Assembly: GCA_018268465.1 (NCBI GenBank)
Contig: JAFDWN010000049.1
Span: 45,199-109,198 of the forward strand
DNA from: Actinomycetota bacterium
Lineage (GTDB): Bacteria > Actinomycetota > Actinomycetes > Mycobacteriales > Mycobacteriaceae
Length of the DNA: 64,000 nucleotides
Reading direction: 5' to 3'
The translations under genes and the position numbers were made by a program. Below the pieces are notes generated by a model that saw nothing but the letters and a program-made list of their open reading frames with translations, was not told the origin of the DNA and searched no databases. This document shows positions 15,007 to 32,525 of this stretch, piece by piece. Within the stretch, counting starts at the first letter, position 1, and every line of letters starts with the position of its first letter.

Positions 15007-15872
15007 CGACCCGCGCCGTGCCGGGCCAGATAACTGCCGACCACCTCGTTGAACTCGGCGGCCCGCTCGACCTGAGACCAGTGTCCGCATTGACTGAAGA
15101 TGTGTGCGTCGGCGTGCGGAATGACGTTGAGCAGTTCCCAGGTTCGCGACACCGGGATCACGACGTCCTGCACACCGTGGATCAGCAGCACGGGGATGTC
15201 CAAGCGGGCCAACACGTCGAAGTCCAGCGGTAGCTCGGTGCGGTCGCGGTCACGCGCGGACACGACCTGCCCCAGCCGCTCAGAGGCCGTATCGTTGAGT
15301 GCCGCCTGATAGCGAAGGGACACCAATTCCTCTGTCACAAGCGATGTGTCGACGACGAACTGCTCGAGGGTGGCGCGAACGCCCGCCTCGGTGAGGGTCG
15401 GGTTGGAATGACCCTTGAGTGCGCCCGTGAGCTTGGCGCCGCCCGTTCCCATCGAGACGATGCCGAGCAGCCGATCCGGGAAATCGATGGCGAACTGGAA
15501 TGCCAGCCAGCCGCCGAGCGAGTTGCCCACGATCCAGGTCTTCTCAATGCCCAGAGCGTCGAGCATCCGGACGGCGTGGCGGACCCATTCCCTGATGCCG
15601 TACTCGGTGCCGTCGGCAACGACCGACTGGCCGTAGCCGATCGAATCGATGGCGATGCAACGCCCGTAAGCGCTCAGCACCGGCAGGTTCAGCCACCAAT
15701 TGGCCGCCGCGGTGACGCCCGTCCCCGAGCCGTGCAGGAACAGAATCGGTGTTCCGGCGCCGAGTTCGTGGTAATGGGTGAGTTCGCCGTCGGCGGTCTG
15801 GATCCACTTGTCCTCCAGCGCGAAGAACGGATCGGTGCGGTAGTCGGGGATTTCGACGGTGAAGGCGGTCAT
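15003..15872 (-). CDS. mhpC: 2-hydroxy-6-oxonona-2,4-dienedioate hydrolase (MhpC)
   Basis: Alpha/beta-hydrolase that splits the ring-fission product to succinate and 2-hydroxypentadienoate. 289 residues. Triad by eye: Ser118 in VGNSLGG, Asp236 in HGVQDVVIP and His264 in CGHWSQVE; oxyanion motif HGSGTG at about residue 47. The start has GAGGAG eight bases upstream. Gene order A-C-B-D-F-E differs from E. coli mhpABCDFE only by the B/C swap. Confidence 0.93.
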   Translation of the reverse strand: MTAFTVEIPDYRTDPFFALEDKWIQTADGELTHYHELGAGTPILFLHGSGTGVTAAANWWLNLPVLSAYGRCIAIDSIGYGQSVVADGTEYGIREWVRHAVRMLDALGIEKTWIVGNSLGGWLAFQFAIDFPDRLLGIVSMGTGGAKLTGALKGHSNPTLTEAGVRATLEQFVVDTSLVTEELVSLRYQAALNDTASERLGQVVSARDRDRTELPLDFDVLARLDIPVLLIHGVQDVVIPVSRTWELLNVIPHADAHIFSQCGHWSQVERAAEFNEVVGSYLARHGAGR

Positions 15873-15896
15873 GTGATGCTCCTCGGTGGGTGGGCG

Positions 15897-17648: not shown

Positions 17649-17718
17649 ATGTCTCCGTATGTCTCCGTGTCTCCGTCCCGACGAGCGAAGGCCGCCCCGT
17701 GGCCCCGCCCGATCGGAG

Positions 17719-17752
17719 TGCAAATAGTGATGATCAACATTCGTTATTTGCA
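17719..17752. promoter_or_regulatory. Operator candidate upstream of mhpA
   Basis: Perfect 8-bp arms TGCAAATA (17719-17726) and TATTTGCA (17745-17752) separated by 18 nt, in the AT-richer gap between the IclR gene and mhpA. Placed 71 to 104 bases upstream of the mhpA start, a suitable site for an IclR activator. Confidence 0.55.
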
Positions 17753-17872
17753 CGTCTACGCGCACTATGTGAACACGAACACAGGGGGTGTTGTCAAGTG
17801 GTGGGGACAACCTCATACCGGGTCGCGGTCAAGCGAGCGGCTAAGACGCAGTTCAGCGGGCTTTGCCGCCGG

Positions 17873-18565
17873 TCAGTCCAGAAGCCGACCGAGATCGGCG
17901 GCCGCGGCGACCATGGCTACCACCGACGTGTCGACGACCTCTTTGGAGGCGCTGATCAAGGTCAGACATGACGCCGGTTCGGCGTCGGAGCGTCGCAGCG
18001 GTACGCCGAGTCCCCAATAGCCGCTGACGATTTCACCGAAGCTCGTCGCATACCCGACACGGCGCGCCTCGGCGACCCGGGGGTCCTCCCCTCGGCGGGC
18101 GGGAAGCGCGGCCAGCAGTGCGTATCCCGCGGCACCCCGATCAAGTGGATGGCGCGCACCCTCCCGGTAGGCGACGCGCACCGCGGCGCCGGAAGGTTCG
18201 GCCACTGTCACCGCGACGGCATCCTGCCCCTCCTCGACGAACAGCGCGACGCTTGAGCCGAGCCGGTTCGCGAGATCCTGCATCACCGGCTTTGCGACGT
18301 CACGCATGCCCGTGTAGACCTGCCGCGCCAGCGCCGTGAGCCCGCCGGCGGGCCGGTAGCGGCCGTCGGGGCCCCGGCTGACGAGGTGGAAATCGGCGAT
18401 CGTGGCCACCAGCCGTGTCGCGATGCTGCGGTGCACGCCGAGGCTGTCCGCCAGATCTTGAATTGTCAGTCCGCCAGGGGAATTCGCTATCAACTCCAGT
18501 GCACGCAAACCTCGTGCGAGAGTCTGCGTACCCGCGGCACGGCCGGGCACTTCGGAAGTGGCCAC
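17873..18565 (-). CDS. IclR-family regulator, probable MhpR-like controller of the mhp operon
   Basis: A 230-residue IclR regulator: winged helix-turn-helix in residues 15-70 (LTIQDLADSLGVHRSIATRL) and an effector-binding GAF-like domain. IclR proteins commonly activate aromatic catabolism in response to the substrate, and E. coli MhpR belongs to this family. It is transcribed in the same direction as mhpA, 224 bases upstream of it, and divergent from the MFS transporter gene. The C-terminal domain looks slightly shorter than usual. Confidence 0.88.
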   Translation of the reverse strand: MATSEVPGRAAGTQTLARGLRALELIANSPGGLTIQDLADSLGVHRSIATRLVATIADFHLVSRGPDGRYRPAGGLTALARQVYTGMRDVAKPVMQDLANRLGSSVALFVEEGQDAVAVTVAEPSGAAVRVAYREGARHPLDRGAAGYALLAALPARRGEDPRVAEARRVGYATSFGEIVSGYWGLGVPLRRSDAEPASCLTLISASKEVVDTSVVAMVAAAADLGRLLD

Positions 18566-18789
18566 GGTTCACCATAAGCCCGGCCGACCGCAGCGATCAC
18601 ACAACCCGCTGAGCCGGTGTGGTGCCGCGCGGCATTGACATCGACAGTGGGCCGTGTCACCGTTGTGCCGTCGCGAGCGAATCTGGAGCCCCGCCGGGCC
18701 GCCGCGGCCGTCACATTCGGAAGATGCGCGCCGATCGTTGCCGTCCCCCACATCGCCGGACGGGCCGATCCGAACCGCGCTTTCCCGAT

Positions 18790-18808
18790 AGCGCTGTGCC
18801 ACAGCGCT
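18790..18808. promoter_or_regulatory. 19-bp palindrome before the MFS transporter gene
   Basis: AGCGCTGTG-C-CACAGCGCT is a perfect 9+1+9 palindrome ending 46 bases before the transporter start, within the 289-base gap between the divergent IclR and MFS genes. The rest of that gap holds no recognisable gene. It is a plausible regulator site controlling one or both genes; it does not resemble the box before mhpA. Confidence 0.55.
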
Positions 18809-18854
18809 CTTCGAATATGTGATGCCGGCAGGCAATCAGCGTGAAAGGGCTCCC

Positions 18855-20219
18855 ATGGACATTCGAGAAGCGATTCGAACGCAGCCGATGCGTCGCTATC
18901 AGATCCGCACCATCGTGATCTGTTTCCTGCTCTGCATGGTCGACGGATTCGAGATCCTCATCATGGCATTCGTCGCCCCGTACCTCAGCAAGGAGTGGAA
19001 TCTCGACTCTGTGCAGATCGGATATCTGCTCAGCGCCGGCCTCGTCGGCATGGCGGTCGGCGCGTTCGGCCTCTCGCCGTTGGCCGATCGCTACGGCCGA
19101 CGGCGGATGATCATCGCCTGCCTGGTGGTCATCACCATCGGCATGGGGCTCTCGGCTGCCGCGACAGGGCCTACCGACCTGCTGGTCTACCGCGCGTTCG
19201 CCGGACTGGGCATCGGCGGCATCGTCGCCAACCTCAACATCCTGGTCTCGGAGAACAGCAACGATCAGCGGCGCGGCCTCGCATTGGGTATCTACGGCGC
19301 GGGCCTGCCCGGCGGCGTGGCGCTCGGCGGTGCCATTTCGGGGCTGCTGATCCCGGTCTTCGGCTGGCGTTCGGCGTTCATCTTCGGGACGGCGGTGACG
19401 GCAATTCTGCTCATCGTCGTGATCCGCGCCCTGCCCGAGTCGATCGAGTTCCTGGTCGAGAAGCGGCCGCATGGGGCCCTCGGGCGCTACAACGCGATCG
19501 CCGCGCGGCTTGGCTACCCGGCGTCGGAGCGGTTGCCCGATCCCAAGGCCGACGCGCATCTGCGCAGCGTGCGCGGCGGCCTCTTCTCCGGACTGATGGG
19601 CCTCCGCACGGCACTGCTGTGGCTGGGCTATTCGTGCCTGATGGCCGCCTTCTACTTCGCGAACAGCTGGACGCCCAAACTGCTGACCGACATCACGGGC
19701 AATGCCGGAATCGGGACGACGGCGGGGGTGCTCATCAACCTCGGCGGCGTGCTCGGAGCCTTGGTCTTCGCGGCGTTGACACTGGCCATCCGGCCGCGAC
19801 TGGTGAGCACCCTCCTGCTGATCTTCGGCGCCGGCATCTATGTCGCCTCAGCCAATGCCCTGCACCTCACAGCGGTGGCGATGGTCCTGTGCGTCATGCT
19901 CGGCGTCGCGGCCAACGGTGGCGTCGCGGCCTTCTACGCCATCAGCCCGTCGGTGTACCCGGCCGCCGTCCGCGCGACCGGGGTCGGATTGATGATCGGA
20001 GTGGGCAGGCTGGTATCGATCGTCGCCCCGATTCTCACCGGCTACCTGATCGGCGGGGGGTGGCACGCCGCCGACCTCTACGTGCTGTTCGGGGCAGTGC
20101 TGTTGGTCGCGGGGGCGTTCACGTACGCCCTCGACCGCACCTATCGGGGGCGCAGCGAGAATCCGGAGACCCCGACCGCGCGCAGCACGCCCGAAAGCGA
20201 TTCGACTGTCGCGGTCTGA
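18855..20219 (+). CDS. MFS transporter, aromatic acid:H+ symporter family (MhpT-like)
   Basis: A 454-residue 12-helix major facilitator. The first helix ends with MVDGFEILIMAFVAPYLSKEW, the loop 2-3 motif is GLSPLADRYGRRR, and a second copy lies in the middle; DGFE and the loop motif are typical of the aromatic acid:H+ symporter group (MhpT, PcaK). It probably brings 3-hydroxyphenylpropionate or a related acid into the cell for the mhp pathway. ATG 18855 was chosen with GAAAGGG upstream; 12 extra residues are possible from 18819. Confidence 0.88.
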   Translation: MDIREAIRTQPMRRYQIRTIVICFLLCMVDGFEILIMAFVAPYLSKEWNLDSVQIGYLLSAGLVGMAVGAFGLSPLADRYGRRRMIIACLVVITIGMGLSAAATGPTDLLVYRAFAGLGIGGIVANLNILVSENSNDQRRGLALGIYGAGLPGGVALGGAISGLLIPVFGWRSAFIFGTAVTAILLIVVIRALPESIEFLVEKRPHGALGRYNAIAARLGYPASERLPDPKADAHLRSVRGGLFSGLMGLRTALLWLGYSCLMAAFYFANSWTPKLLTDITGNAGIGTTAGVLINLGGVLGALVFAALTLAIRPRLVSTLLLIFGAGIYVASANALHLTAVAMVLCVMLGVAANGGVAAFYAISPSVYPAAVRATGVGLMIGVGRLVSIVAPILTGYLIGGGWHAADLYVLFGAVLLVAGAFTYALDRTYRGRSENPETPTARSTPESDSTVAV

Positions 20220-20344: not shown

Positions 20345-21733
20345 ATGAAATTCATTCAGTACTATCTGGATTGCCTGTCCCACGCGTCATACCTCATCGG
20401 GGACGAAGCCTCGGGACGCGCCGTCGTCGTGGACCCCCAGCGCGACGTGTCGCAGTACCTCACCGACGCCGCGGAATACGGGCTGTCCATCGAACTCGTC
20501 ATCGAGACGCACTTCCACGCCGACTTCCTCTCGGGACACCTGGAGCTGGCCGAGGCGACGGGCGCCAAGATCGTGTACTCGTCCGTCGCAGAACCCGAGT
20601 TCGAGGTCATGGGGGTCGCCGACGGGCAGACCTATGCGCTCGGCGGCGACGACGGGGTCCGGCTGGAGTTCCTGCACACCCCGGGACACACTCCGGAATC
20701 GCTGAGCATCGTGGTCTACGAACACGGCGGCGACGGCGTGCCCTACGGGGTGCTCACCGGCGACACGCTGTTCATCGGCGACGTGGGCAGACCGGACCTG
20801 TTGGCCTCCATCGGTTTCACCCGCGACGAGCTGGCCGACAAGCTCTATGACTCGCTGCACAACAAGTTGATGCCACTGCCCGACCCGACCCGGGTCTATC
20901 CCGCGCACGGGGCCGGATCGGCGTGCGGCAAGAACTTGTCCACCGACCTGTGGTCGACGATGGGCGACCAGAAGGAGACCAACTACGCGCTGCGCGCGGC
21001 GGACCGGGCGACGTTCATGCGGCTGGTCACCGAGGGTCAGCCTCCCGCGCCGGGCTATTTCGTCTACGACGCGATCCTCAACCGCAAAGAGCGTGAACTG
21101 CTCGACGAGCACGAGGTTCCCGCCGCGATGACCTACCGACAGGTGCAGGACGCGCTCGACGCCGGCGCGGTGCTCGTCGACGGCCGCACCCCCGAGGAGT
21201 TCGCGCAGGGCCATCTCCCCCGGGCCGTCAACATCGGGCTGGACGGCCGGTACGCCGAATTCGCCGGTTCGGTGTTGCCCTCCGACGTCGACGTCGTGCT
21301 GTTCGTCGAGCCCGGACAGGAGACCGAAGCCAAGAATCGGCTGGCCAGAATCGGCTTCGACCGCGTGATCGGCCATCTCGAACGGCCCTATGAGGCGATG
21401 CTCGCACACCGCGACGACGTCCGGGTGGCGTCGCGCCTGACCGCCAAGGCCTTCGACGAGCGGGCGGCCGCGCTGGCCGACCTGCAGATCGTCGACGTGC
21501 GCAACCCGGGCGAGGCCGACGCGGGAATGATCCCCGGCGCCGTCAACATCCCGGTTGGGCAGCTGCCCGGCCGGATCGCCGAGCTCGACCCGGCGCGACC
21601 GACGGTCGTCTACTGCGCGGGCGGCTACCGCTCGTCGGTCGCGGCAAGCCTGCTGCGCCGGCACGGCTTCTCCGATGTCAGCGACATCCTGGGCGGCTAC
21701 AACGCCTGGGAGGCCACGGTCCAGAACGCCTGA
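20345..21733 (+). CDS. Metallo-beta-lactamase/double rhodanese protein (persulfide dioxygenase-like)
   Basis: A 462-residue fusion. Residues 1-240 form a persulfide-dioxygenase-type MBL domain (metal motif THFHADFLSGH at 55-65, GHTPESLS, TGDTLFIGDVGRPDL, YPAHGAGS). Two rhodanese domains follow. The first (about 265-355) lacks the catalytic Cys: the loop reads VVLFVEPGQ. The second (about 375-462) keeps Cys424 in VYCAGGYRSS. It probably oxidises or transfers sulfane sulfur from glutathione- or mycothiol-type persulfides made by the SQR encoded next. It is under CstR-like operators and followed after 26 bases by the SQR gene. Confidence 0.87.
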   Translation: MKFIQYYLDCLSHASYLIGDEASGRAVVVDPQRDVSQYLTDAAEYGLSIELVIETHFHADFLSGHLELAEATGAKIVYSSVAEPEFEVMGVADGQTYALGGDDGVRLEFLHTPGHTPESLSIVVYEHGGDGVPYGVLTGDTLFIGDVGRPDLLASIGFTRDELADKLYDSLHNKLMPLPDPTRVYPAHGAGSACGKNLSTDLWSTMGDQKETNYALRAADRATFMRLVTEGQPPAPGYFVYDAILNRKERELLDEHEVPAAMTYRQVQDALDAGAVLVDGRTPEEFAQGHLPRAVNIGLDGRYAEFAGSVLPSDVDVVLFVEPGQETEAKNRLARIGFDRVIGHLERPYEAMLAHRDDVRVASRLTAKAFDERAAALADLQIVDVRNPGEADAGMIPGAVNIPVGQLPGRIAELDPARPTVVYCAGGYRSSVAASLLRRHGFSDVSDILGGYNAWEATVQNA

Positions 21734-21759
21734 GCCAGACACGATCGGGAGAGACAGCC

Positions 21760-22959
21760 ATGATCACCGCAAAGCACCGGATCGTCATCGTCGGCGGCGG
21801 CACCGCAGGCATTACCGTCGCGGCCAGGCTGCTGCGCAAGGGATACGCCGATGTCGCCGTCATCGAACCGTCGGATAAGCACTACTACCAGGCGTTGTGG
21901 ACGCTCGTCGGGGCCGGCCAGGCCACGGCGGCAGCCACCGAACGGGCCGAGGCCTCGGTCATGCCGCAGTCGGCCACGTGGATCAGGAATCGCGCCGCCG
22001 CGGTCGACCCGGCCGACAACACCGTCACCTGTGAGGACGGAGCGACGTACGGCTACGACGTCCTCGTCGTGTGTCCGGGCATCCAGCTCGACTGGAACCG
22101 CACCGAGGGGCTGGTCGACACGCTCGGCCGCAACGGCGTGTCGTCGAACTACCGTTTCGACCTCGCGCCGCGCACCTGGGATCTCATCAAGAGCACCCGA
22201 TCGGGCACCGCTGTGTTCATGATGCCGTCCGGTCCGATCAAGTGTGCGGGCGCGCCGCAGAAGATCGCGTACCTGGCGGCAGATCACTGGCGGAAGGCGG
22301 GTGTACTCGGCAACATCGACGTACACCTCGTGGTCCCCACCCCGCGCATCTTCGGGATCCCCGCCATCGCGGACAGCCTGGACAAGGTCATCGCGGGCTA
22401 TGGCATCCACCTGCACACCAACTCCGAGGTGACTGCGGTCGACGGCAACGCTCGCAAGGTCGTCGTGTCGAGTGTGGGCGAGGGCGGTAGTGAAACCGCA
22501 CTCCCCTACGACATGCTGCACGTGGCGCCCCGACAGTCGGCGCCGGACTGGATCAAGGCCGGCCCGCTGTCCACCGGTGATGCCAATGGCTACGTCGACG
22601 TCGACAAGCACACCCTGCAGCACACCCGGTTCCCGAACGTCTTCGCCCTCGGCGACGCCGGTTCGACACCGAACTCCAAGACCGGCGCCGCAATTCGCAA
22701 ACAGGCCCCGGTGGTGGTTGCCAACATCGATGCGTTCCTCAAGGGCGAACCACCGAAGGCCCGCTACGACGGTTACGCGTCCTGCCCGCTGGTCACGTCG
22801 TCACATGACATGCTGCTGGCCGAGTTCGACTACTCGTTCCAGATGACGCCCACCTTCCCGGTGTTCGACCCGGCCAAACCGCACCGGGCGTACTGGTACC
22901 TCAAGAAGTACGGGCTGCCGTTCATGTACTGGAACCTGATGCTGCGCGGCCTGGCCTGA
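21760..22959 (+). CDS. Sulfide:quinone oxidoreductase-like flavoprotein
   Basis: A 399-residue FAD protein of the SQR family. FAD motif VGGGTAGITVAARLL at residues 11-25; the redox Cys pair is Cys162 in PIKCAGAPQKI and Cys342 in YASCPLVTS, matching the two-Cys pattern of SQRD-type enzymes; GDAGSTPNSKTGAA near residue 300 is the second FAD motif. It should oxidise sulfide to a persulfide and pass electrons to menaquinone at the membrane. GGGAGAGAC provides the ribosome site. Co-transcribed with the MBL-rhodanese gene. Confidence 0.87.
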   Translation: MITAKHRIVIVGGGTAGITVAARLLRKGYADVAVIEPSDKHYYQALWTLVGAGQATAAATERAEASVMPQSATWIRNRAAAVDPADNTVTCEDGATYGYDVLVVCPGIQLDWNRTEGLVDTLGRNGVSSNYRFDLAPRTWDLIKSTRSGTAVFMMPSGPIKCAGAPQKIAYLAADHWRKAGVLGNIDVHLVVPTPRIFGIPAIADSLDKVIAGYGIHLHTNSEVTAVDGNARKVVVSSVGEGGSETALPYDMLHVAPRQSAPDWIKAGPLSTGDANGYVDVDKHTLQHTRFPNVFALGDAGSTPNSKTGAAIRKQAPVVVANIDAFLKGEPPKARYDGYASCPLVTSSHDMLLAEFDYSFQMTPTFPVFDPAKPHRAYWYLKKYGLPFMYWNLMLRGLA

Positions 22960-23156: not shown

Positions 23157-24101
23157 GTGCCGGGCGACATCCAGATCCGTCAATTGCAGTACCTCGTGGC
23201 GCTGGCGCGCGAACGTCACTTCGGCCGCGCCGCGGCGGCCTGTCACGCATCGCAACCCGCGCTGTCGGCGGCCCTACGGAAGCTGGAGACCGAGCTGGGT
23301 GTGACCATCGTCCAGCGCAAACAACGCTTCACCGGCTTTACACCCGAAGGCGAACAGGTGGTCGCCTGGGCCCATCGGATCCTCTCCGAGCGCGACGCGC
23401 TGCTCATCGACCTGGCCCGCATGCGGGAGGGGTTGACCGCGACGCTGCGAATCGGCGCCATCCCCACCGCGGTGCCGGTCGCGCCACTGTTGACGGGTCC
23501 GTTCTGCGACCGCCATCCGCTGGCGAGTGTCCGCCTCGACCTGTGCTCGTCGCGCGACATCGACCGCAGGCTGACCGAGTTCGACCTCGACGTGGCGTTG
23601 ACCTATCTGACGGGCGAGGACAGCGCCGACGTACACGAGCTACCGCTCTACACCGAGACCTATCTGCTTCTCACTCCCGCCGACAGCGAACTCGCCGAAC
23701 GGGATTCAGTCGGATGGGACGAAGCAGCCGACAAACGCCTGTGCGCACTCGGTCAGGAGATGCAGAGCCGGCGCATCCTCGACTCCACGATGGCCAGAGC
23801 CGGGGTGCAACTACGTCCCGTCATCGAAACCGGCACCGTCGGAGCACTTTTCGCGCACGTCGCCACGCGGCGGTTCAGCAGCATCATCGCCCACCCGTGG
23901 CTCTACGCGTTCGGCGTCCCCGACGGCATGCGGGTGGTGCGGCTGAACCCTCAGCCCCGCGGTCCCCGGGTCGGCATCCAATGGTCCGCCCAGCGCCACG
24001 AATCAGTGGTTGCGACGGCATTTTTCGAGGCGACGAGCGATGTCGACGTCGCGGGCCGACTCGACGCGGTACTCGAGAAAGCCCTCGCGCGCACCCCATG
24101 A
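23157..24101 (+). CDS. LysR-family transcriptional regulator
   Basis: A 314-residue LysR regulator. The winged HTH is in residues 6-65 (IRQLQYLVALARERHFGRAA, then SQPALSAALRKLETELG) and a periplasmic-binding-protein-like effector domain follows. The GTG start is followed by PGDIQIRQLQYL, the normal beginning of the family. It converges with the SDR gene 13 bases away, and a hairpin separates it from the SQR gene, so it is transcribed on its own. Its target is unclear; neighbouring operons already have their own candidates. Confidence 0.88.
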   Translation: MPGDIQIRQLQYLVALARERHFGRAAAACHASQPALSAALRKLETELGVTIVQRKQRFTGFTPEGEQVVAWAHRILSERDALLIDLARMREGLTATLRIGAIPTAVPVAPLLTGPFCDRHPLASVRLDLCSSRDIDRRLTEFDLDVALTYLTGEDSADVHELPLYTETYLLLTPADSELAERDSVGWDEAADKRLCALGQEMQSRRILDSTMARAGVQLRPVIETGTVGALFAHVATRRFSSIIAHPWLYAFGVPDGMRVVRLNPQPRGPRVGIQWSAQRHESVVATAFFEATSDVDVAGRLDAVLEKALARTP

Positions 24102-24113
24102 CGCGGGCTGAGG

Positions 24114-24875
24114 TCAGACCGCCGGCTGAGCGTAGAGGCTCTTTCCGCCGCACACGTAGAGCACCTGGCCGGTGACCGCCCCCGCCGTCGGGCCCGCCAG
24201 GAATCGCACGGCGTGCGCGACGTCGTCCGGTGAGCCCAGCGTCCCCATGGGTTGTGCGCGCAACAACCGTTGCATGACCTCGGCGGGTTCGGATCGCAGC
24301 AACGGGGTGTCGACGAGTCCGGGTGCCACACAGTTGACGGTGATGCCGTGCTTCGCGAGCTCGATCGCCAGGGCCCGCGTCGCCGACACCACACCGCCTT
24401 TCGACGAGGCATAGGACAGCTGCCCGAACCACCCCAGCCAGGCGCGCGAGGCGATGTTCACGATGCGGCCGGTCCGACGGGGCACCATGCTGCGAGCGGC
24501 CGCCTGCGAGCACAGGAACACCCCCGTCTGGTTGACCGCGATGGTCCTCTGCCAATCCTCGTCGGAGATCCGGCGTACACCGCGGTCGATGCTGATGCCC
24601 GCGTTGTTCACCATGACGTCCGCCGGCCCGAGACCCGCCTCGACCTTGCCGAACATCGCTTCGACCGCTTGGCGGTCGGTGACGTCGACGGGCACACCGA
24701 TCGCGACGCCGCCGTCCTCGACGATCGCCGCGGCCGCGGCGTCGGCCGCGTCTCCGGCGATGTCGGCCACCGCCACCGCGCCGCCCCGCGCCGCGAGTCC
24801 ACGCGCGATCGCCAAGCCGATGCCGCCGGCGGCTCCTGTGACGACGGCGACCTTACCCGAGAATTCCTTCGACAT
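24114..24875 (-). CDS. SDR alcohol dehydrogenase, active subunit (BbsD-like)
   Basis: A 253-residue classical short-chain dehydrogenase with TGAAGGIG at 13-20, NNAG at about 90 and the catalytic set Ser143, Tyr155 and Lys159 (SYASSK). In the proposed bbs-like pathway it would oxidise a 2-(1-hydroxyalkyl or hydroxybenzyl)succinyl-CoA to the 3-oxoacyl-CoA with NAD. The adjacent upstream gene is a degenerate SDR sharing the unusual WLGW stretch just before the active-site Tyr, so the two are probably paired subunits like BbsC/BbsD. Last gene of the operon. Confidence 0.85.
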   Translation of the reverse strand: MSKEFSGKVAVVTGAAGGIGLAIARGLAARGGAVAVADIAGDAADAAAAAIVEDGGVAIGVPVDVTDRQAVEAMFGKVEAGLGPADVMVNNAGISIDRGVRRISDEDWQRTIAVNQTGVFLCSQAAARSMVPRRTGRIVNIASRAWLGWFGQLSYASSKGGVVSATRALAIELAKHGITVNCVAPGLVDTPLLRSEPAEVMQRLLRAQPMGTLGSPDDVAHAVRFLAGPTAGAVTGQVLYVCGGKSLYAQPAV

Positions 24876-24890
24876 GCTCGTACTCCTTTG

Positions 24891-25541
24891 TCACACAGAC
24901 AGACTCGACAGCAGGCTGGCGCCCCCGCAACAGTGCAGGATCTGGCCAGTGATGTAGCCGCTGCGCGGGTCGAGGAAGAACGCGACCGACGCGGCGATGT
25001 CCTCGGCGCTGACCGGGACACCGGACAGCGGCACGGGCTCGTAGAGATGGGTTCCGGGTGCAGGCCCGTCGTCGCGCCGGGACGCCGCGTGCGCGGACAT
25101 GCCGACGACGGCGTTGACAGTGATACCGGCCTGGCCGTGGGCCAGCGCCAGGCTTCGCACTGTGGCGACCAGCGCCGCGGCTTGCGCGGCCACCCGGGGC
25201 CTGGTCGGCCAGCCCAGCCAGTCCCGGCTGCCGACCGCCACCACCCGGGCGCCGCCGTGCGCGGTCGGCGGCAGGTGCGGCCGCAGCGACCCCACCAACT
25301 GCAGCAGCGCCGTCGCCGGGTCGTAGCCGGCGTGCACCACGCCGTCGAGCAGACCGGGGACGTACACCACACCGTGCACCGGACGGTGCATCTCGGGCAG
25401 CGCGTCCGCAGCCGCATCGGCCTGCCCGCGTTCCAGCACGACGCCCCAGCCGTCGGCTTCGAGCGTGCGCACCACCGCGTCGGTGACGGCCGCGTCGCCG
25501 TGTGACAGCACGAAGACGCGGCCAACGCTGTCGTTGGACAT
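24891..25541 (-). CDS. Catalytically inactive SDR-like subunit (BbsC-like)
   Basis: A 216-residue protein with the overall SDR plan but without its active residues. The N-terminal glycine motif is replaced by VLSHGDAAVTDAVV, and aligning its SRDWLGW (105-111) with SRAWLGW of the next gene puts Val at the Tyr position and Ala at the Lys position. The C-terminal YITGQILHCCGGASLL is SDR-like. This mirrors BbsC, the pseudo-subunit of the BbsCD dehydrogenase of anaerobic toluene degradation. Probably structural; separated from the active gene by 15 bases. Confidence 0.8.
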   Translation of the reverse strand: MSNDSVGRVFVLSHGDAAVTDAVVRTLEADGWGVVLERGQADAAADALPEMHRPVHGVVYVPGLLDGVVHAGYDPATALLQLVGSLRPHLPPTAHGGARVVAVGSRDWLGWPTRPRVAAQAAALVATVRSLALAHGQAGITVNAVVGMSAHAASRRDDGPAPGTHLYEPVPLSGVPVSAEDIAASVAFFLDPRSGYITGQILHCCGGASLLSSLSV

Positions 25542-25550
25542 CTGATTCTC

Positions 25551-26693
25551 CTATCGGGTGGTGAGGATGTGGACCGAGCAGGCACCGTTGTCGACGCCGA
25601 AGATGCCGCCGCCGGTGACGTGCGTCAGGGCGACCCGCGCGCCGGGCACCTGCAGCGCTCCGGCCTGACCGGTGAGTTGCCAATAGCTTTCGCAGATCTG
25701 TGCGACACCGGTCGCCCCGACCGGATGTCCTCGGGACAGCAGGCCCCCGCTGGGGCTCACCGCGACCCGTCCGTCGCGGTCGAACTGACCGCCGGCGAGG
25801 GCCACATGGGCCTTGCCGCGCTCACTGATTCCCAGCGCTTCGGCATGCAACAATTCGGCGACGGCGAACGCATCGTGCAGTTCGACCAGGTCGAGATCGT
25901 CGGGGCCGAAACCCGACTGCCGATAAGCGGCGGCCGCCGTCCGCTCGGTGATCTCCGGCCACGCCATATCCCGGTATCCCGTCGAGAACCGTCCCGATGT
26001 GACGACGCTGGCTGCGATCCGGACATGCGGCCCGGCCAGCCGCCCGGCGAACCGCTCGGTGCACAGCAGCACGGCGGCGGCCCCGTCGCTGTTGGGGCAG
26101 CAGTGCAGCAGGCGTAGCGGATCGGCCACCGGGCGTGAGACCTCGACCTGTTCCGCGGTGATCCCGCTCTGGAAATGTGCGCGCGGGTTGTCGGCGCCGT
26201 TGCGCCGGTTCTTGATCGACACGTTGGTGAGGTCGTCGACCGAGGCGCCCCAGTCGTGCAGATACCGCTGGGCGCGCATGGCGTATGCGGCGGGCATGAC
26301 CATGCCCTGCCCGATCTCGACGTCGGCGGTGGTCAGCGGAAGGGTGCCCCCGCCGAACGACGACAGGTTCTCCGCGCCGAATGCCACGACACACTCGGCG
26401 AATCCGCCGGCGACGGCCTGCCAGGCCAGGTGGACCGCCGATGCCCCACTGGCGCAAGCATTCTCGACGGTGTACACCGGTTGGCCGGAGACCCCTGCGG
26501 CTTGCATAACCCGCTGCGCCAGCAACGACCCGCCGTAGACGGAGCCGCCGAAACCCGCGTCGACGTCCCCCGGGGCGATACCCGCGGTGGTCATCAGCTC
26601 GCTGACCGCGCGGTACCCGAGTTCGCCGGCCGGCGTGTCGCGGTGTTTGCCGAACGGGTGCACGGCCGCTGCGGCCAGGAACACCTCCCTCAT
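25551..26693 (-). CDS. SCP2-type thiolase (BbsB-like)
   Basis: A 380-residue thiolase-fold protein. Nucleophile Cys80 in ENACASGASA, the HDAF motif and the GHPVGATG His near residue 320 are present, as in SCP2-type thiolases. Its ATG overlaps the stop of a DUF35 gene; such thiolases work as complexes with DUF35 partners. By analogy with BbsAB it would split a 2-acylsuccinyl-CoA with CoA into succinyl-CoA and an acyl-CoA. A longer reading from 27212 would run through the DUF35 gene in another frame and is not real. Confidence 0.88.
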   Translation of the reverse strand: MREVFLAAAAVHPFGKHRDTPAGELGYRAVSELMTTAGIAPGDVDAGFGGSVYGGSLLAQRVMQAAGVSGQPVYTVENACASGASAVHLAWQAVAGGFAECVVAFGAENLSSFGGGTLPLTTADVEIGQGMVMPAAYAMRAQRYLHDWGASVDDLTNVSIKNRRNGADNPRAHFQSGITAEQVEVSRPVADPLRLLHCCPNSDGAAAVLLCTERFAGRLAGPHVRIAASVVTSGRFSTGYRDMAWPEITERTAAAAYRQSGFGPDDLDLVELHDAFAVAELLHAEALGISERGKAHVALAGGQFDRDGRVAVSPSGGLLSRGHPVGATGVAQICESYWQLTGQAGALQVPGARVALTHVTGGGIFGVDNGACSVHILTTR

Positions 26694-27106
26694 CGGTTGG
26701 CTCCCTGCGTGGTCGGCGCGACGCCGTAGGACATCACGGGGCCGTTGTCGTCGGAGCCGATGACGGTCAGGCGAAGCTGCACGGGTGTGCCCGGCGCCGG
26801 CGCCGAATCGCCTGCATAGTGCGCCAGTACGCGGATGTCGCCGATGTCGGTGTAGGTCAACACATAGGGTGCGCTGAAGCGGGCCGGCCCGATCCGCACG
26901 AGGGTCGAGGCGTACACGGTTCCCGTGTCGGCGCTCGGTTCCGGCGTCATATCGCCGGATGCGCATGCGGCGCATTGCGTGCGGGCGGGGAACCATGCGG
27001 TTCCGCAGGCGCGGCAGCGGGTGGTGTTGAGCACCGCGCGGATGCCGTCGGTGCGGAAGTCGCCGGCGCCGACGACATTGCCCGTCGGCTCGGTGAACGG
27101 GGTCAT
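26690..27106 (-). CDS. Zn-ribbon OB-fold (DUF35) thiolase partner (BbsA-like)
   Basis: A 138-residue protein with an N-terminal zinc ribbon (CRACGTAWFPARTQCAACAS: CxxC, then CxxC after 11 residues) and an OB-fold domain (VYASTLVRIG, VLTYTDIGDIRVLAHY). Such subunits stabilise and gate thiolases of the SCP2 class; BbsA is the known example in the benzylsuccinate pathway. Start: ATG 27106 follows AAAGGA by six bases; an ATG at 27133 overlapping the hydratase stop would add nine residues. Overlaps the thiolase start (ATGA). Confidence 0.87.
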   Translation of the reverse strand: MTPFTEPTGNVVGAGDFRTDGIRAVLNTTRCRACGTAWFPARTQCAACASGDMTPEPSADTGTVYASTLVRIGPARFSAPYVLTYTDIGDIRVLAHYAGDSAPAPGTPVQLRLTVIGSDDNGPVMSYGVAPTTQGANR

Positions 27107-27129
27107 TTGGGGTCCTTTGCTCTCGCGGG

Positions 27130-27936
27130 TCATCGACCCTGGTATTGCGGTGTGCGGCGTTCGGCGAACGCCGTCCGTCCCTCGACGCGGTCGCGGGTGT
27201 CGCGCAGGACACCCCACAACAGCTGTTCGAGTTCGACCGACCGGCTCAGCGGTAGGTCCTCGGTGCGGTGCGCGAGGGTCGTGATGCTGCGCACGGCCAG
27301 CGGCCCGTTGGATGCGATGCGGTGGGCGATCTGGTGTGCGCGGGCCATGAGGTCCTGCGGCGCGACGACCTCGCTGACCAGGCCGACCCGGTGGGCCTCG
27401 GTGGCGTCGACACGGTCGCCGGTGAGCAGCAGCTGCATGGCCACCGAACGGGGAACGGCCCGTAGCAGTTTGGACACTCCCCCGACTGCGGGGACGCTGG
27501 CCCAGCGCGCCTCGGGCAGGCCGAACGTCGCGGTGGTGCTGGCGATGCGAATATCGCAGTCCAGGGCGATCTCGGCGCCCCCGCCGAGCGCATGCCCGTT
27601 CACCGCCGCGATCAGCGGCTTGTCGATGCCCAGTTCTCCGAGAGTGATGGCGCGGACGTACAAGCCGGCGTCGACGCTGTGGGCGTAGGGCTGGAAGTAC
27701 GTTTCGGCGAACCCGGACTCGGCGGGCATGGTGCGTTTCAGGTCGGCTCCGGTGCAGAAGGCCCGTTCGCCTGTCCCGGTGATGATCGCGACGAACAGGT
27801 CGGGGTCGTCGCGGAATTCGCGCATGGCCGCGTTCAGCGCGGCCATCGAATCGACGTCGAGCGCGTTGAGCGCGTCGGGCCGGTTGATCCGTACCACGAA
27901 TATCCTTGACTCACGCTGGGTTTCGATGGTGTCCAT
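27130..27936 (-). CDS. Enoyl-CoA hydratase/isomerase (BbsH-like position)
   Basis: A 268-residue crotonase. Oxyanion-hole segments ERAFCTGADL and NGHALGGGAEIAL and both catalytic glutamates (in GAEIAL and FGLPEARW) are present, so a real hydratase is likely. In the operon it would add water to an alkylidene- or arylidene-succinyl-CoA made by the CoA-transferases. The ATG sits one base after the stop of the CoA-transferase gene, with AAGGAG upstream. Confidence 0.88.
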   Translation of the reverse strand: MDTIETQRESRIFVVRINRPDALNALDVDSMAALNAAMREFRDDPDLFVAIITGTGERAFCTGADLKRTMPAESGFAETYFQPYAHSVDAGLYVRAITLGELGIDKPLIAAVNGHALGGGAEIALDCDIRIASTTATFGLPEARWASVPAVGGVSKLLRAVPRSVAMQLLLTGDRVDATEAHRVGLVSEVVAPQDLMARAHQIAHRIASNGPLAVRSITTLAHRTEDLPLSRSVELEQLLWGVLRDTRDRVEGRTAFAERRTPQYQGR

Positions 27937-27937
27937 A

Positions 27938-29158
27938 TCAGCCAACTGCTCCTTCCAGTTCCAGGGCTTCATAGGCGGCCTCGGGGACGCCGAGGAGGTC
28001 GACGCAGACGTCGCGGGTGTCGGCGCCGAGCAGCGGTGCCGGCGAACGCAGCCTGCCGGGGGTTCGCGACAATCGGTAGGGAATGCCGTCGTAGACACTG
28101 CGGCCCATGACGGGATGGTCGAGGGTGACCCAGTGCCGACGTGCGCCGAGTTGGGGATCGCTGCGCAGCAGCGTGTCGGCGGTCATCACGGCCGAGGCCG
28201 CAACGCCGCGTCGGGTCAGCTCGTCGGCCAGCCGGCCGGCGTCCCACGCCCGGGCGGCGGCAGCCACCAGGTCGTCGACCAACCCGGCGCACCGCCGTCG
28301 GCCGTCGGCGGTGTCCAGCTCCGGATAGCGATCCCAGGCCTGCGACCGGAGTACGGATCGTATTGCGGCCCATTGCTCGTCGCCGAAGACCGCGATCGCG
28401 CACCACTGGTCGTCGCCGGCGCAGCGGTACACCCCGTGCGGAGCCGCCGCCGCGTCGGCATTGCCGTTGCGGGTCGGCGCCGCCCCGGCGGCCGCAGCCA
28501 CGACAGCGGGGCCGATCGCGTTGACCGTCGACTCCAGCTGAGCCAGCTCGATGTATTCGCCCTGGCCTGTCCTCTTACGCTTGCGCAGCGCGGCCAGCAC
28601 CGCCACCGCACCGTGCAGCGGGTTGGGCACGTGGTCGGGATAGTTGGTTCCGGTACCGACCGGGGGCAGGTCGGGGTACCCGGTGAGGCCGAGCATCCCG
28701 CCGGCCGCGGCGATCGTCAGGCCGTACCCGCGGCAGTCGCGATGCGGTCCTTCGGTTCCCATCATCGGCATCTCGAGGTAGATCACGTCGGGGCGGACGG
28801 CCCGCGCGGCGTCGTAGCCCAGGCCGAGCCGGTCCATGGTGCCAGGGCTGAAGTTGTTCACCACGATGTCGCTGACTTCGATGAGGCGCAGTGCGAGCGC
28901 ACGGCCGCGCGGATGTTTCAGGTCGAGGCAGATGGAGCGCTTGCTCGAATTCCGGTTGGCGAAGTATCCGCTGCGCTCCACACCGGTGACGCCGTCGCGG
29001 AACGGTGCCATCGACCGGACCGGGTCGGCGCGCCGGCGGGACTCGACCTTCACGACGTCGGCGCCGTGATCGGCCAGTGGTTTGGTGAGGAACGGACCGG
29101 CCCCGACCCAGGAGAAGTCGGCGACGCGGATTCCGCTCAGGGGTAGCGATGCGGTCAT
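27938..29158 (-). CDS. Family III CoA-transferase, probable active subunit (BbsF-like)
   Basis: A 406-residue CaiB/BaiF-type CoA-transferase. The N-terminal LSGIRVADFSWVGAGPFLTK and DVVKVES form the CoA-binding Rossmann part. Asp175 in TNYPDHVPNP lies where the family's catalytic Asp is expected. Fused gene neighbours (ATGA overlap upstream, one-base gap downstream) pair it with a second, shorter CaiB protein. In BbsEF a heteromeric pair moves CoA from succinyl-CoA to benzylsuccinate. Substrate here is unknown; a substituted succinate is the natural inference. Confidence 0.86.
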   Translation of the reverse strand: MTASLPLSGIRVADFSWVGAGPFLTKPLADHGADVVKVESRRRADPVRSMAPFRDGVTGVERSGYFANRNSSKRSICLDLKHPRGRALALRLIEVSDIVVNNFSPGTMDRLGLGYDAARAVRPDVIYLEMPMMGTEGPHRDCRGYGLTIAAAGGMLGLTGYPDLPPVGTGTNYPDHVPNPLHGAVAVLAALRKRKRTGQGEYIELAQLESTVNAIGPAVVAAAAGAAPTRNGNADAAAAPHGVYRCAGDDQWCAIAVFGDEQWAAIRSVLRSQAWDRYPELDTADGRRRCAGLVDDLVAAAARAWDAGRLADELTRRGVAASAVMTADTLLRSDPQLGARRHWVTLDHPVMGRSVYDGIPYRLSRTPGRLRSPAPLLGADTRDVCVDLLGVPEAAYEALELEGAVG

Positions 29159-30264
29159 GATCGGCTCCGGTTCGTCTCGTGGGGCGTCGGCCTCGGACCG
29201 ACGTCGGAGGTGCGGAATCGGTACGGCGGTCCGGGCAGCGTGACCTCCTGCCCGTCGATGTCGACGGTGCGGAAGTAGTCGCGCGCCACGAGTTGGGGGT
29301 CGTTGATCAGGTCGTCGGGTGTGGCCACCGGCGCGACGCTGATTCCGCGTTTCTGGCCCGATGCGAACAGTTCGGATTTGTCCCTGCGCCCGGCGAATTC
29401 GTCGAACAGCTCCCGGAATCGCCGTCCGGCCTCCGGCGATCGGCGCCACTGGGGATCGTGCCAGACCGCGGCGCCGAGTTCGGCGGCTTCGGCTATCCCG
29501 CCGTCGACGAGCCAGGCGACGATGTCGGCCCAGGCAAGTGGGCTGCCGCCGAGGCCGCCGACGAGGTAGATCCACCCGTCTTCGCAGCGGAACAGGCCGG
29601 TGCCGGCCTCCCGTGGGCCGGCCCCGCCGCGGCGGCGTACGACGCCCTCGAGGTCGGCGTACTGGGCGGCGTTCTCCAGCGAATGCGCGACGGCCTCCTG
29701 CGCCGACAGGTCGACGATCTGCCCGCCGCCGTCGGTTTCGAGGACGTGCAGCGCAATCAGCGCTGCGACGGCGGCGTGTGCGCCGGCGATTATCGCGGTC
29801 TGCTCACCCCAGGCCCGGACCGGCTCCCGGTCGGGTTCTCCGGCCAGCGCCAGCAACCCCCCCGCGGCCAGCAGGGTGAGATCGCTGGCCGGCCGGTCCG
29901 CGTAGGGCCCGGTCAGGCCGAACGGGCTGATCGACACATGGACGAGCCCGGGGTGCGCCGTCGTGACGTCCGCGGGGTGCAGGCCCCGCGCCCGTAGGGC
30001 GGCGGGCCCCTCGCTGGTGAGCAGCAGGTCGGCACCGCCGAGCGACACGGCAACCGCGTCGTCGCCGGAGGCGACCGGGTGGATCTGCTTGCCTGCGTTC
30101 ATGAATGCCCGGCGGTGCGGGTCGGTATGGTCCGGACGACCGAATCGGGTGACCTCGGCGCCGAGGTCGGCCAGCAAGCGCCCGGTGTACTCACCCAACG
30201 CGGTGGTGGCGTCCAGGACGATGACACCCGAGAGCGGAGCGCTCCGATCGACTGTGGTGGTCAT
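29155..30264 (-). CDS. Family III CoA-transferase, probable non-catalytic partner (BbsE-like)
   Basis: A 369-residue CaiB-type protein, LSGVIVLDATTALGEYTGRL at the N-terminus and DLTLLAAGGLLALAGEP before the usual active-site position. Where the partner has Asp175 this protein reads AWGEQTAIIAG, with no Asp, so it may not form the acyl-anhydride intermediate. It is coupled to the partner by ATGA and follows the transporter gene after four bases. A catalytic/non-catalytic pair is consistent with BbsEF-like heteromers. Confidence 0.83.
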   Translation of the reverse strand: MTTTVDRSAPLSGVIVLDATTALGEYTGRLLADLGAEVTRFGRPDHTDPHRRAFMNAGKQIHPVASGDDAVAVSLGGADLLLTSEGPAALRARGLHPADVTTAHPGLVHVSISPFGLTGPYADRPASDLTLLAAGGLLALAGEPDREPVRAWGEQTAIIAGAHAAVAALIALHVLETDGGGQIVDLSAQEAVAHSLENAAQYADLEGVVRRRGGAGPREAGTGLFRCEDGWIYLVGGLGGSPLAWADIVAWLVDGGIAEAAELGAAVWHDPQWRRSPEAGRRFRELFDEFAGRRDKSELFASGQKRGISVAPVATPDDLINDPQLVARDYFRTVDIDGQEVTLPGPPYRFRTSDVGPRPTPHETNRSRS

Positions 30265-30268
30265 CGTG

Positions 30269-31576
30269 TCACCAACCCGGCAGGACGAAGAGCGCCCAGG
30301 TGATCAGCGGCGCGGCAGCGACCAGGCTGAAGCCCCAGATCATCAGGCCGCGGTACACCATGAGGTCTTTGCCCTTGGGTGCGTTGGCGACGACGAGCGC
30401 GCCGTTGGTGGAGAACGGACTCGAGTCGACCACCGAGGACGAAATCGACAGCGCGGCAACCAGTGCGACCGCGCCGAGCTCTCCGGCAGCCAGCAGCGGC
30501 ACCGCCAATGGGATCAGCGCACCCAGGATTCCGGTGGTGGACGCGAACGCCGACACGACCGCGCCGACGAACAGCAGCACCAGGGCCGCCAGCAGCGGTG
30601 AGGACACCGACGCGATTCCCTCACCGATGTAGTCGACGGTGCCCATCGCCTCCAGCAGCCCGACGTAGGTGACGATGCCGCAGATGAGAAGGACGACACC
30701 CCAACTGATTTCCGCGGTGGCGGCTTTGGCGGTAGCCGGTGACATGAGGGCGAGGACACCTGCGACGGCCATCGCGGTGAGGCCGATGTTGAGATCGAAG
30801 ACCAGTGCCCCGACGGCGAGCAGTGCCAGCCCGGTGACCGTCGCCACGCGGTCGCGCTGTTCGATCCGGCTCGTGACGCCGGGCGCACGGGTCTTGACCG
30901 CCACACCGCCGGTACCTTCGGTCGGCTCGTCGGCCGGCGCAGCCTCCTCGGCCGCGCACCGTCCGCCCGCCCGCAGCAGGCGCAGACCGCCGAAGGCGAC
31001 GTAGATGACAACGGCCAGCGCGACGTTGAACGCGAGGTTGGCCAGGAACAGGGTGGTGGGGCTGCCGGGAAGTCCGCTGCGGTCCACGATGCCGTTGGTG
31101 ATCACGCCGAGCACACCCAGCGGTGAGAAGTTCCCGGCCGCCGACCCGTGGATCACCATCAAGCCCATCAGCAGCGGATTGATCCCGTACCGCGCGGCGA
31201 ACGCCATGCCGATCGGTGCGATGATCGCCACCGCCGCCGGGCTCAACGCGCCGAGCGCCACCAGGGCCGCGCTGAGGACGAACATCACCCACGGGAGCGC
31301 GGCAACGCGGCCCCGCACCGCCCGGACCGCACCGCCGACCAGCCAGTCGACCGTGCCGTTTCGTTTGGCGATGGCGAACAGGAATGTGACCCCGACCAGG
31401 ATCACGAACAGATCCGCGGGGAAGTCGGCGAGCACGTCGGCGGTCGAGACGCCGAAGACCCACGTCCCCACCCCGAACGCCCCGACGAGGGCGAGAACGC
31501 CCAGGTTGACCGAGCGCACGGTGCCCAGCAGGAAGACGCCGACAAGAACGAGTATCGCGATGAGATGAGGTGACAT
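30269..31576 (-). CDS. SLC13/MatC-like dicarboxylate-type permease
   Basis: A 435-residue membrane protein with about 11-12 hydrophobic segments (LIAILVLVGVFLLGTV at the start) and a charged central loop around residues 200-235. The overall plan, with GSAAGNFSPLGVLGVI and a matching SVVDSSPFSTNGALVV repeat, is that of the ion-transporter superfamily that includes SLC13, CitM and malonate MatC carriers. It is the promoter-proximal gene of the operon, so it probably imports the pathway substrate, in keeping with a dicarboxylate. Confidence 0.83.
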   Translation of the reverse strand: MSPHLIAILVLVGVFLLGTVRSVNLGVLALVGAFGVGTWVFGVSTADVLADFPADLFVILVGVTFLFAIAKRNGTVDWLVGGAVRAVRGRVAALPWVMFVLSAALVALGALSPAAVAIIAPIGMAFAARYGINPLLMGLMVIHGSAAGNFSPLGVLGVITNGIVDRSGLPGSPTTLFLANLAFNVALAVVIYVAFGGLRLLRAGGRCAAEEAAPADEPTEGTGGVAVKTRAPGVTSRIEQRDRVATVTGLALLAVGALVFDLNIGLTAMAVAGVLALMSPATAKAATAEISWGVVLLICGIVTYVGLLEAMGTVDYIGEGIASVSSPLLAALVLLFVGAVVSAFASTTGILGALIPLAVPLLAAGELGAVALVAALSISSSVVDSSPFSTNGALVVANAPKGKDLMVYRGLMIWGFSLVAAAPLITWALFVLPGW

Positions 31577-31718: not shown

Positions 31719-32525
31719 ATGAATCCCGCACGCCTCGATCGGGCTCTCAAGATCCTCGAGTACCTGGCCAGTCACCAGGAGGGCAGTGCACTCAAGCCCA
31801 TGTGCGAGCAGCTGGGGATGCCGATGAGCAGCGCGCACGACCTCGTCAGCGCGTTGCTGGAGCTCGACGCGGTCCGGCAGAACGATGCGAAGACCTACGT
31901 GCTGGGGCCACGGTCGCTGGTGATGGCGCTGTCGATCATCGACTCGGTCGACCTGCGCCAGGTCAGCCGCCCGTTCCTGCTGCAACTCTGCGAAACGGTC
32001 AACGAGAACACCTACCTGGCGCTGCGCAGCGGTAACACCGTCACCTATGCCGACCGCTACGAGGCCGGCCAGAACCTGTCGGTGGTGATGAAACTGGGCG
32101 GCTCACGCCCGCTGCACGGCACCAGCATCGGCAAACTGTTCTCGGCGTTCAACCCGGACCTGGAGGCACGAGTCCTCGGCGCGGACACCCTCGATCCGCT
32201 GACACCGCTCACCCTGACCGACCGGGACAACCTGGCGCGCGAATTCGAGGCCATCCGCGACCGCGGCTACAGCGTCAGCGACGGCGAAAGCGTGGAGGGC
32301 ATCGTCGCCCTGGCAACCCCGATTTTCGACGCGACCGATACCGTGCAAGCCGCCGTGCACATTTCGGCTCCGCGGGGCCGCCTCTCCCCCGAACGGCGCC
32401 CGATCGTCCTGACCGAGATGCTGCGCACCGGGGCGGCGATCTCCGAACAACTAGGTGCCACCGGCAGCTCGATCACCGTCCGATCCCTGGACGAGATCGT
32501 CGCGCTGGAGAACACCCGCCGGTAG
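31719..32525 (+). CDS. IclR-family regulator of the bbs-like operon
   Basis: A 268-residue IclR regulator with a winged HTH in residues 5-65 (LDRALKILEYLASHQEGSAL, MPMSSAHDLVSALLE) and an effector domain ending in CoA-ester/carboxylate-sensing type sequences. It is divergent from the transporter-CoA-transferase operon and shares a 142-base intergenic region containing palindromes. Local control of the operon is the simplest reading. It is followed after 15 bases by an alpha/beta-hydrolase gene in the same direction. Confidence 0.9.
   Translation: MNPARLDRALKILEYLASHQEGSALKPMCEQLGMPMSSAHDLVSALLELDAVRQNDAKTYVLGPRSLVMALSIIDSVDLRQVSRPFLLQLCETVNENTYLALRSGNTVTYADRYEAGQNLSVVMKLGGSRPLHGTSIGKLFSAFNPDLEARVLGADTLDPLTPLTLTDRDNLAREFEAIRDRGYSVSDGESVEGIVALATPIFDATDTVQAAVHISAPRGRLSPERRPIVLTEMLRTGAAISEQLGATGSSITVRSLDEIVALENTRR

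Follow-up and report, generated by a model that had tools for sequence, protein, structure and literature searches.

A closely spaced eight-gene operon on the minus strand of a 64,000-nt stretch of DNA from a soil mycobacterium in the broad sense (assembly GCA_018268465.1, contig JAFDWN010000049.1; the whole stretch is here called the window) encodes relatives of the Bbs enzymes, with which anaerobic toluene degraders carry out the beta-oxidation of benzylsuccinate, the second half of anaerobic hydrocarbon degradation. The operon, at positions 24114-31576, carries neither the acyl-CoA dehydrogenase BbsG (here G) nor benzylsuccinate synthase, and we consider it fairly probable that it serves, under the control of IclR, in the breakdown of 2-substituted succinates arriving in already unsaturated form. 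It is a variant of the Bbs-type system, not bbs itself.

The genes, in the order T-E-F-H-A-B-C-D, are read from position 31576 to position 24114 (Table 1). Since E and F, as well as A and B, overlap by 4 nt and the remaining intergenic gaps measure only 1-23 nt, the genes from T to D are likely to form one transcript. Gene calls and Pfam families agree with the coordinates and gene order given in a preliminary description of this DNA. The two Pfam matches of A each fall slightly below the cut-off, and the short-chain dehydrogenase/reductase (SDR) family is matched by C over its second half only and by D over its full length.

Table 1. Genes of the operon and flanking regulatory features, with positions in the window.
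Feature	Position	Strand	Basis
T, MatC_N/CitMHS dicarboxylate carrier, 435 aa	30269..31576	-	Pfam MatC_N 2.9e-55, CitMHS 8.2e-25
E, CoA-transferase III subunit without Asp, BbsE-type, 369 aa	29155..30264	-	PDB 9fn0_A 6.5e-53
F, CoA-transferase III subunit with active-site Asp, BbsF-type, 406 aa	27938..29158	-	PDB 9fn0_B 3.1e-98; Asp175 in NYPDHV
H, enoyl-CoA hydratase, BbsH-type, 268 aa	27130..27936	-	Pfam ECH_1
A, DUF35 Zn-ribbon/OB protein, BbsA-type, 138 aa	26690..27106	-	OB_ChsH2_C, zf-ChsH2; NF053627
B, thiolase, BbsB-type, 380 aa	25551..26693	-	PDB 7pxp_C 7e-79; NF053628; Cys, HDAF, GHP
C, short degenerate SDR, BbsC-type pseudo-subunit, 216 aa	24891..25541	-	glycine motif and Tyr/Lys lost; tail SSLSV
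D, SDR, BbsD-type catalytic hydroxyacyl-CoA dehydrogenase subunit, 253 aa	24114..24875	-	PDB 7pcs_B 1.2e-65; SRAWLG, YxxxK
IclR-family regulator, 268 aa, divergent from operon	31719..32525	+	IclR_C 1.7e-38
LysR gene converging on operon	23157-24101		
Tandem operator TTCGN6CGAA-N7-YCGN6CGAA	31600..31633	-	spacer between IclR gene and operon; exact in 8/8 type-I loci

For four of the proteins the top PDB match is a Bbs protein, well ahead of the runner-up: BbsB for the thiolase B (runner-up 1.5e-59), BbsD for D (1.8e-56) and the two chains of a single benzylsuccinate CoA-transferase for F (7e-47) and E (2.3e-22). The claim that the window holds the bbsABCDEF set plus H, largely in its order, is supported, least firmly for H. 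C finds BbsD of 7pcs first (4.5e-15) and BbsC second (1.4e-9), and A finds the DUF35 protein 6esq_E (1.9e-8) slightly ahead of BbsA (7pxp_A, 1.2e-7). Among the NCBIfam models the sole match of A is the BbsA model (48 bits, below the cut-off of 250) and the leading match of B is the BbsB model (300.8 bits, below the cut-off of 750); no match named BbsE, BbsF, BbsC or BbsD appears among those shown for E, F, C and D. Identities to the proteins of anaerobe-type loci are 37-48% for B, 40-49% for H, 38-46% for F and 32-39% for E. The closest thiolase paralogue of B in its own genome is 36% identical, and the hydratase paralogues of H reach 35-42%; as this range meets that of the anaerobe-type H proteins, H is the least certain orthologue of the module. 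Searching 61 genomes (the own genome and 60 relatives) with C returned no match above 46 bits outside the own genome, the matches being ordinary-looking SDRs.

With the bbs operon of Aromatoleum, the Geobacter group and Desulfosporosinus the window operon shares paired CoA-transferase subunits with an Asp in F only, the hydratase H, the DUF35/thiolase pair AB and the SDR pair CD with a common tail on C. Most anaerobe-type loci run A-B-C-D-E-F-G-H, whereas in the Geobacter group E-F-G-H is followed about 4 kb on by A-B-C-D; the window has this latter order without G and the intervening genes. It differs further in lacking a glycyl-radical enzyme, in having its own MatC carrier and its own IclR gene and operator, and in overall divergence (about 32-50% identity).

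The module recurs in a few arrangements. Of 297 genomes from the same genus, 4 contain B at E<=1e-90 (one copy is just 47% identical), and so do 5 of the 397 from the order; F at E<=1e-100 is present in 3 of the 394 from the class, where the other two copies are 45-52% identical (the own genome is included in each count). A scan of species genomes with an alignment of F yielded 128 confirmed relatives, of which the best 80 were taken. Eight loci have an arrangement that we call type I, a divergent IclR gene followed by T-E-F-H-A-B-C-D: the window, genomes G101 and G600, Arthrobacter ISL-28 (two copies, L059 and L061), Arthrobacter Y81, Nocardioides and Kribbella. The locus of Streptomyces albiflavescens is similar and lacks T. 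In the four type-II loci (Rhodococcus opacus pLP414/pLPS8, Amycolatopsis deserti, Prauserella and genome G526) orthologous F-H-A-B-C-D genes stand together and the half-sites resemble those of the window; unlike in the window, E lies apart beside the IclR gene and there is an additional block of genes, described below. The loci of a Mycolicibacterium contig and of genome G065 are ended by contig ends, and that of genome G330 is more divergent, its E- and F-like genes being 29-39% identical. In all, 14 loci of this clade hold both E and F, T occurs in 9 of 17 clustered loci, and relatives of the IclR regulator at 55-78% identity occur in 12 other loci.

Across 36 F and 36 E sequences (15 clade, 15 anaerobe-type and 6 other rows for each), every F row has the Asp corresponding to D175 of F, within NYPDHV or NYTDHV, whereas none of the E rows has an Asp at the equivalent position; in the CoA-transferase family this Asp is the active-site residue. 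Together with the matches to 9fn0_A and 9fn0_B, this indicates a heteromeric EF with the Asp in F alone, as in the bbs operon. Wherever a clade row covers them, B retains the Cys, HDAF and GHP motifs of thiolases. It does not have the aldolase-type active site of the steroid Ltp2/ChsH2 pair, and the lipid-transfer protein 6ok1 is matched at just 1.3e-26.

The SDR pair likewise consists of a catalytic D and an accessory C, as judged by PDB matches, motifs, tail and position. D retains Ser, Tyr and Lys in 15/15 clade rows. C has lost the Tyr/Lys pair in all 15 and the glycine motif in all 10 rows that fully cover it (two more cover it partly and three do not). In the 15 anaerobe-type rows the state of C varies: three Bacillota have it intact, the Geobacter group shows partial decay, and in Aromatoleum the motifs are lost. 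C of the window clade is more degenerate than in the first two of these groups, and decay of the accessory subunit seems to have proceeded in parallel across lineages. In the Bacillota loci L068-L071 BbsC, the first SDR between B and E, retains all SDR motifs. At its C terminus the protein C keeps a tail of the form [SFY]-S-[LM]-S-x, as in BbsC, in 15/15 clade loci and in 16/16 two-SDR anaerobe-type loci compared, the tail of D being different. Because of this tail and its position we take C to be the BbsC orthologue; a tree with the long C branch cannot decide the matter. The idea that C is an unrelated SDR or an artefact was discarded, given its conserved place and tail in 15/15 loci.

Quick maximum-likelihood trees were computed for B, H, C and D. 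In each, the 15 clade rows lie on one side of a branch, with support of 92 for H and of 100, 97 and 99 for B, D and C, the last three being flagged for long rows and less trustworthy. The branch separates the clade from the anaerobe-type rows and from most rows of proteobacterial clusters with a single SDR; next to the clade lie three outside H rows and, in the B and D trees, single rows from locus L104. B is placed with Bbs-type thiolases and away from its own-genome paralogues. H groups with anaerobe-type H proteins, away from eight own paralogues, at a weak support of 75, and the H proteins of other clusters fall on the same side. The split of the SDRs from their outgroup has a support of just 35, with three outside SDRs joining C, and the assignment of D and C consequently rests mainly on the PDB match, the motifs and the BbsC tail. 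The preliminary description had named a grouping of the CoA-transferases, the SDR pair and the thiolase with unrelated families as grounds for refutation: the trees speak against such a grouping for B, less firmly for H and with little force for the SDR pair, while E and F were placed by their PDB matches to their respective BbsEF chains. Standing apart from the anaerobe-type loci in these trees, the module gives the impression of an old sister lineage and not of a recently copied toluene operon.

With three BbsG queries no BbsG-like gene was found in any of 16 clade loci (0/16, including the window and the fragment L053, which does not reach E-F-H), while 10/10 anaerobe-type control loci gave a strong match. 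The only match in the window is a generic acyl-CoA dehydrogenase (ACAD) gene at about 40.1-41.3 kb (26-28% identical), and the best in the own genome reaches 171 bits at 34% identity, another being 37% identical. Outside the clade, G is present at 44-74% in loci L066 (a betaproteobacterial metagenome-assembled genome, MAG), L068 (a Bacillota MAG) and L067 (Geodermatophilus), and the BbsG queries did not find it in L076, L104 or L111. The PFL/glycyl-radical family (PF02901) was not found in the own genome, which is 99.87% complete, the control being positive in 3 of 14 genomes. The earlier statements that neither an acyl-CoA dehydrogenase G nor a benzylsuccinate synthase is present therefore hold, the first for the window, the own genome and the clade loci, the second for the own genome.

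A candidate for the missing desaturation is found in type II. Near the module in all four type-II loci, in a block with an aldehyde dehydrogenase (ALDH) gene and a gene of the 2-hydroxyacid dehydrogenase (2HADH) family, lies a flavoprotein gene whose product reaches 329-350 bits with the model for tricarballylate dehydrogenase (TcuA), below the cut-off of 369; the protein is TcuA-like, with a putative activity of that kind. TcuA desaturates carboxymethylsuccinate to aconitate. A TcuA-like relative (45%) is also encoded in locus L174, together with E/F, an ALDH and a zinc alcohol dehydrogenase; the 19.5 kb covered there yielded no H, A, B, C or D. A PrpF-type isomerase gene occurs in two proteobacterial single-SDR clusters. 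It is plausible that the type-II flavoprotein is a free-acid substitute for BbsG, and the TcuA-like genes and PrpF clusters suggest that the entry substrate is an unsaturated 2-substituted succinate formed at the level of the free acid. An MFS protein resembling aromatic-acid symporters (TIGR00895, 171 bits against a cut-off of 418.55) is encoded beside the TcuA block in the type-II locus L055, with a relative in L064, and points weakly to aryl substituents. For type I, no linked TcuA-like gene was found, and the own genome has no good TcuA (best 67 bits) and one PrpF gene, which is unlinked; the simplest reading of type I is thus the import of a ready-made unsaturated diacid.

The spacer between the IclR gene and T contains two palindrome-like sites 20 bp apart (Table 1), and the same pair with two mismatches is found in Streptomyces. 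In 40 Markov windows of 64 kb searched on both strands, the tandem pattern was matched 0, 2 and 22 times at 0, 1 and 2 mismatches. The site in the window is the sole exact one in the 6.88-Mb own genome; at up to two mismatches there are 52 strand-wise matches compared with 7 for a reversed-pattern control. In type II, half-sites lie upstream of F, of E/IclR and of the 2HADH-ALDH-TcuA block. Of the five exact half-sites within 25 kb of R. opacus, four coincide with the starts of MFS-PaaI-MBL, 2HADH-ALDH-TcuA, F and E/IclR or lie no more than 52 bp away from them, and in Amycolatopsis the three exact ones are all located at 2HADH, F and E/IclR; the half-site closest to 2HADH carries one mismatch in L055 and L056. 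These sites make a single regulon probable for both R. opacus and Amycolatopsis. A second exact tandem site, accompanied by a further half-site, is found in Arthrobacter ISL-28 in a gap (L059, 4884-4994) that lies 685 bp upstream of a minus-strand SDR gene (3387-4199). In Arthrobacter Y81 an ABC transporter operon that includes an NMT1-type binding protein (L060, 12324-15322) has an exact half-site 69 bp ahead of it.

We infer the substrate class, the direction and order of the reactions, the products and the import of the substrate by T as follows. T would import a diacid of the type R-CH=C(COOH)-CH2-COOH, an alkylidene- or arylidene-succinate; EF would transfer CoA from succinyl-CoA to the carboxyl adjoining the double bond; H would hydrate that bond; D, together with the dead subunit C, would oxidize the alcohol to the 3-oxo ester; and AB would cleave the resulting 2-acylsuccinyl-CoA to R-CO-CoA and succinyl-CoA, the latter returning to the activation step. 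In the type-II relatives the TcuA-like flavoprotein, with the aldehyde dehydrogenase and the further dehydrogenase, probably yields the unsaturated diacid as the free acid. The whole route would amount to Bbs chemistry minus the BbsG step, the steps of the Bbs enzymes being those assigned in PMC10818641.

Several observations weigh against this proposal. The position of C in its tree is unreliable, and the clade proteins branch outside those of toluene degraders. Single-mismatch half-sites abound (15-33 in each locus of 19.5-25 kb), so that firm support for the type-II regulon is confined to exact sites. In type I neither a linked TcuA-like gene nor a good TcuA of the own genome was found to account for the unsaturation. 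The BbsA and BbsB equivalog cut-offs are missed by a wide margin, for which reason the R group may not be benzylsuccinate-like. Among the ACADs of the own genome, 21 are listed as matching BbsG at E<=1e-15 with 26-37% identity and could replace G, and the Geodermatophilus locus, from an actinobacterium outside the clade, has E and F together with G at 44-48%.

The last two points favor the possible, though somewhat unlikely, alternative that the substrate is a saturated 2-substituted succinate such as benzylsuccinate, on which a generic ACAD encoded elsewhere performs the G step after EF; catabolic ACADs are frequently unlinked to their pathways. Set against it are the absence of G from all 14 clade loci with both E and F, compared with its presence in every anaerobe-type control locus, and the type-II flavoprotein, which argues for desaturation of the free acid. 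That flavoprotein lends indirect support to the substrate being already unsaturated, as the preliminary description had it, a claim from which the saturated substrate with a generic ACAD still detracts.

It is distinctly improbable that the substrate is a diacid of quite different size or function, for instance a tricarboxylate or a terpenoid fragment, and that the likeness to Bbs reflects a shared 2-acylsuccinyl-CoA logic only. The moderate identities of B, F and E and the missed cut-offs would fit such a substrate, as would the resemblance of the type-II flavoprotein to tricarballylate dehydrogenase and the MatC and TctC carriers in the window and related clusters; nothing direct speaks for these substrates, however, and the MFS proteins of L055 and L064 point elsewhere. 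A biosynthetic direction, in which an acyl-CoA and succinyl-CoA would be condensed to an alkylidene- or alkylsuccinate, is hardly credible: the complete bbs operon of Geobacter metallireducens, run in reverse in Escherichia coli, did give benzylsuccinate according to PMC10818641, but the carrier in the operon and the divergent IclR gene look catabolic, and the annotated flanking genes include no biosynthetic ones. An ordinary fatty-acid or steroid side-chain beta-oxidation operon misread as Bbs can be dismissed as extremely unlikely and was rejected on top matches and residues, for although thiolases, hydratases and SDRs are common families and DUF35 proteins also partner steroid enzymes (ChsH2, 6ok1), the paired EF, the pseudo-SDR with its BbsC tail, the Bbs proteins as top matches and the greater distance of the own thiolase paralogues all speak for a Bbs-type module.

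Related clusters with a single SDR occur in the proteobacteria Variovorax SRS16, Cupriavidus necator N-1 (pBB2), Novosphingobium (pLA3) and Salipiger (pTPRO5). Like the window they keep DUF35, thiolase, SDR and hydratase genes together, and their thiolases are 48-49% identical to B. Unlike the window they have one SDR, whose tail is SSPSV or SSASV-like in all four; a single distant CoA-transferase in three and none adjacent in Salipiger; and tripartite tricarboxylate transporter (TTT) or ABC transport genes in three. Two proteobacterial loci (L039, 8307-14901, and L040, 9627-17603) combine DUF35, thiolase, SDR, hydratase, CoA-transferase, PrpF isomerase and TctC-type proteins and perhaps represent a parallel pathway for substituted itaconate- or maleate-type acids. 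In L067 (6893-13841, with G) and in the Chloroflexi locus L111 (8784-13567, without G), E, F and H lie beside a thiolase-like protein, presumably Ltp2-like, that has YDNF and ESY in place of HDAF and GHP; a retro-aldol variant is possible. Acetolactate-synthase-like, thiamine pyrophosphate-dependent enzymes are encoded near Bbs-type CoA-transferase genes in L104 (13-2196), L111 (6003-7847) and L175 (12580-14421), perhaps marking a 2-oxoacid route into such pathways.

Elsewhere in the window, positions 14059-20219 carry genes for a LigB dioxygenase, an alpha/beta hydrolase, a FAD_binding_3 hydroxylase, an IclR regulator (IclR_C matched partly) and an MFS carrier, together an mhp-like cluster. 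Positions 20345-22959, adjoining the LysR gene, encode an MBL-rhodanese protein followed by a pyridine-nucleotide-disulphide oxidoreductase, perhaps a sulfide-oxidation pair. Base composition gave no sign of horizontal transfer, the GC content of the operon being only slightly above that of its flanks.

The actinobacterial hosts of the module are known as aerobes. In the portion of the open-access PMC literature covered, no aerobic bbs-like operon was recognised. A broader reading, which we offer as speculative and rather unlikely, is that the Bbs enzymes serve 2-substituted succinates in general and did not originate with toluene degradation: aerobic actinobacteria would degrade plant-derived benzylidene- and benzylsuccinates with the G-less form, and toluene degraders would have added G and benzylsuccinate synthase. 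Substrates might then include 8-8'-diferulate-type or oxidised lignan-type diacids, giving an aroyl-CoA and succinyl-CoA, and in type II the TcuA-like flavoproteins and the alcohol and aldehyde dehydrogenases might prepare the diacid. The pinoresinol pathway of PMC12607616 was considered as support and gave none, the terms CoA, succin- and thiolase being absent from the part of that paper available.

If the proposed role holds, a conserved and separately regulated G-less form of the Bbs system in soil actinobacteria would imply another, perhaps wider, role for it in carbon cycling. The presence of bbs-like genes by themselves would then be an unsafe marker of anaerobic toluene degradation, and the module would provide enzymes from aerobic hosts for making or degrading 2-substituted succinates. 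The operator and the association with TcuA-like genes offer concrete handles toward the substrate.

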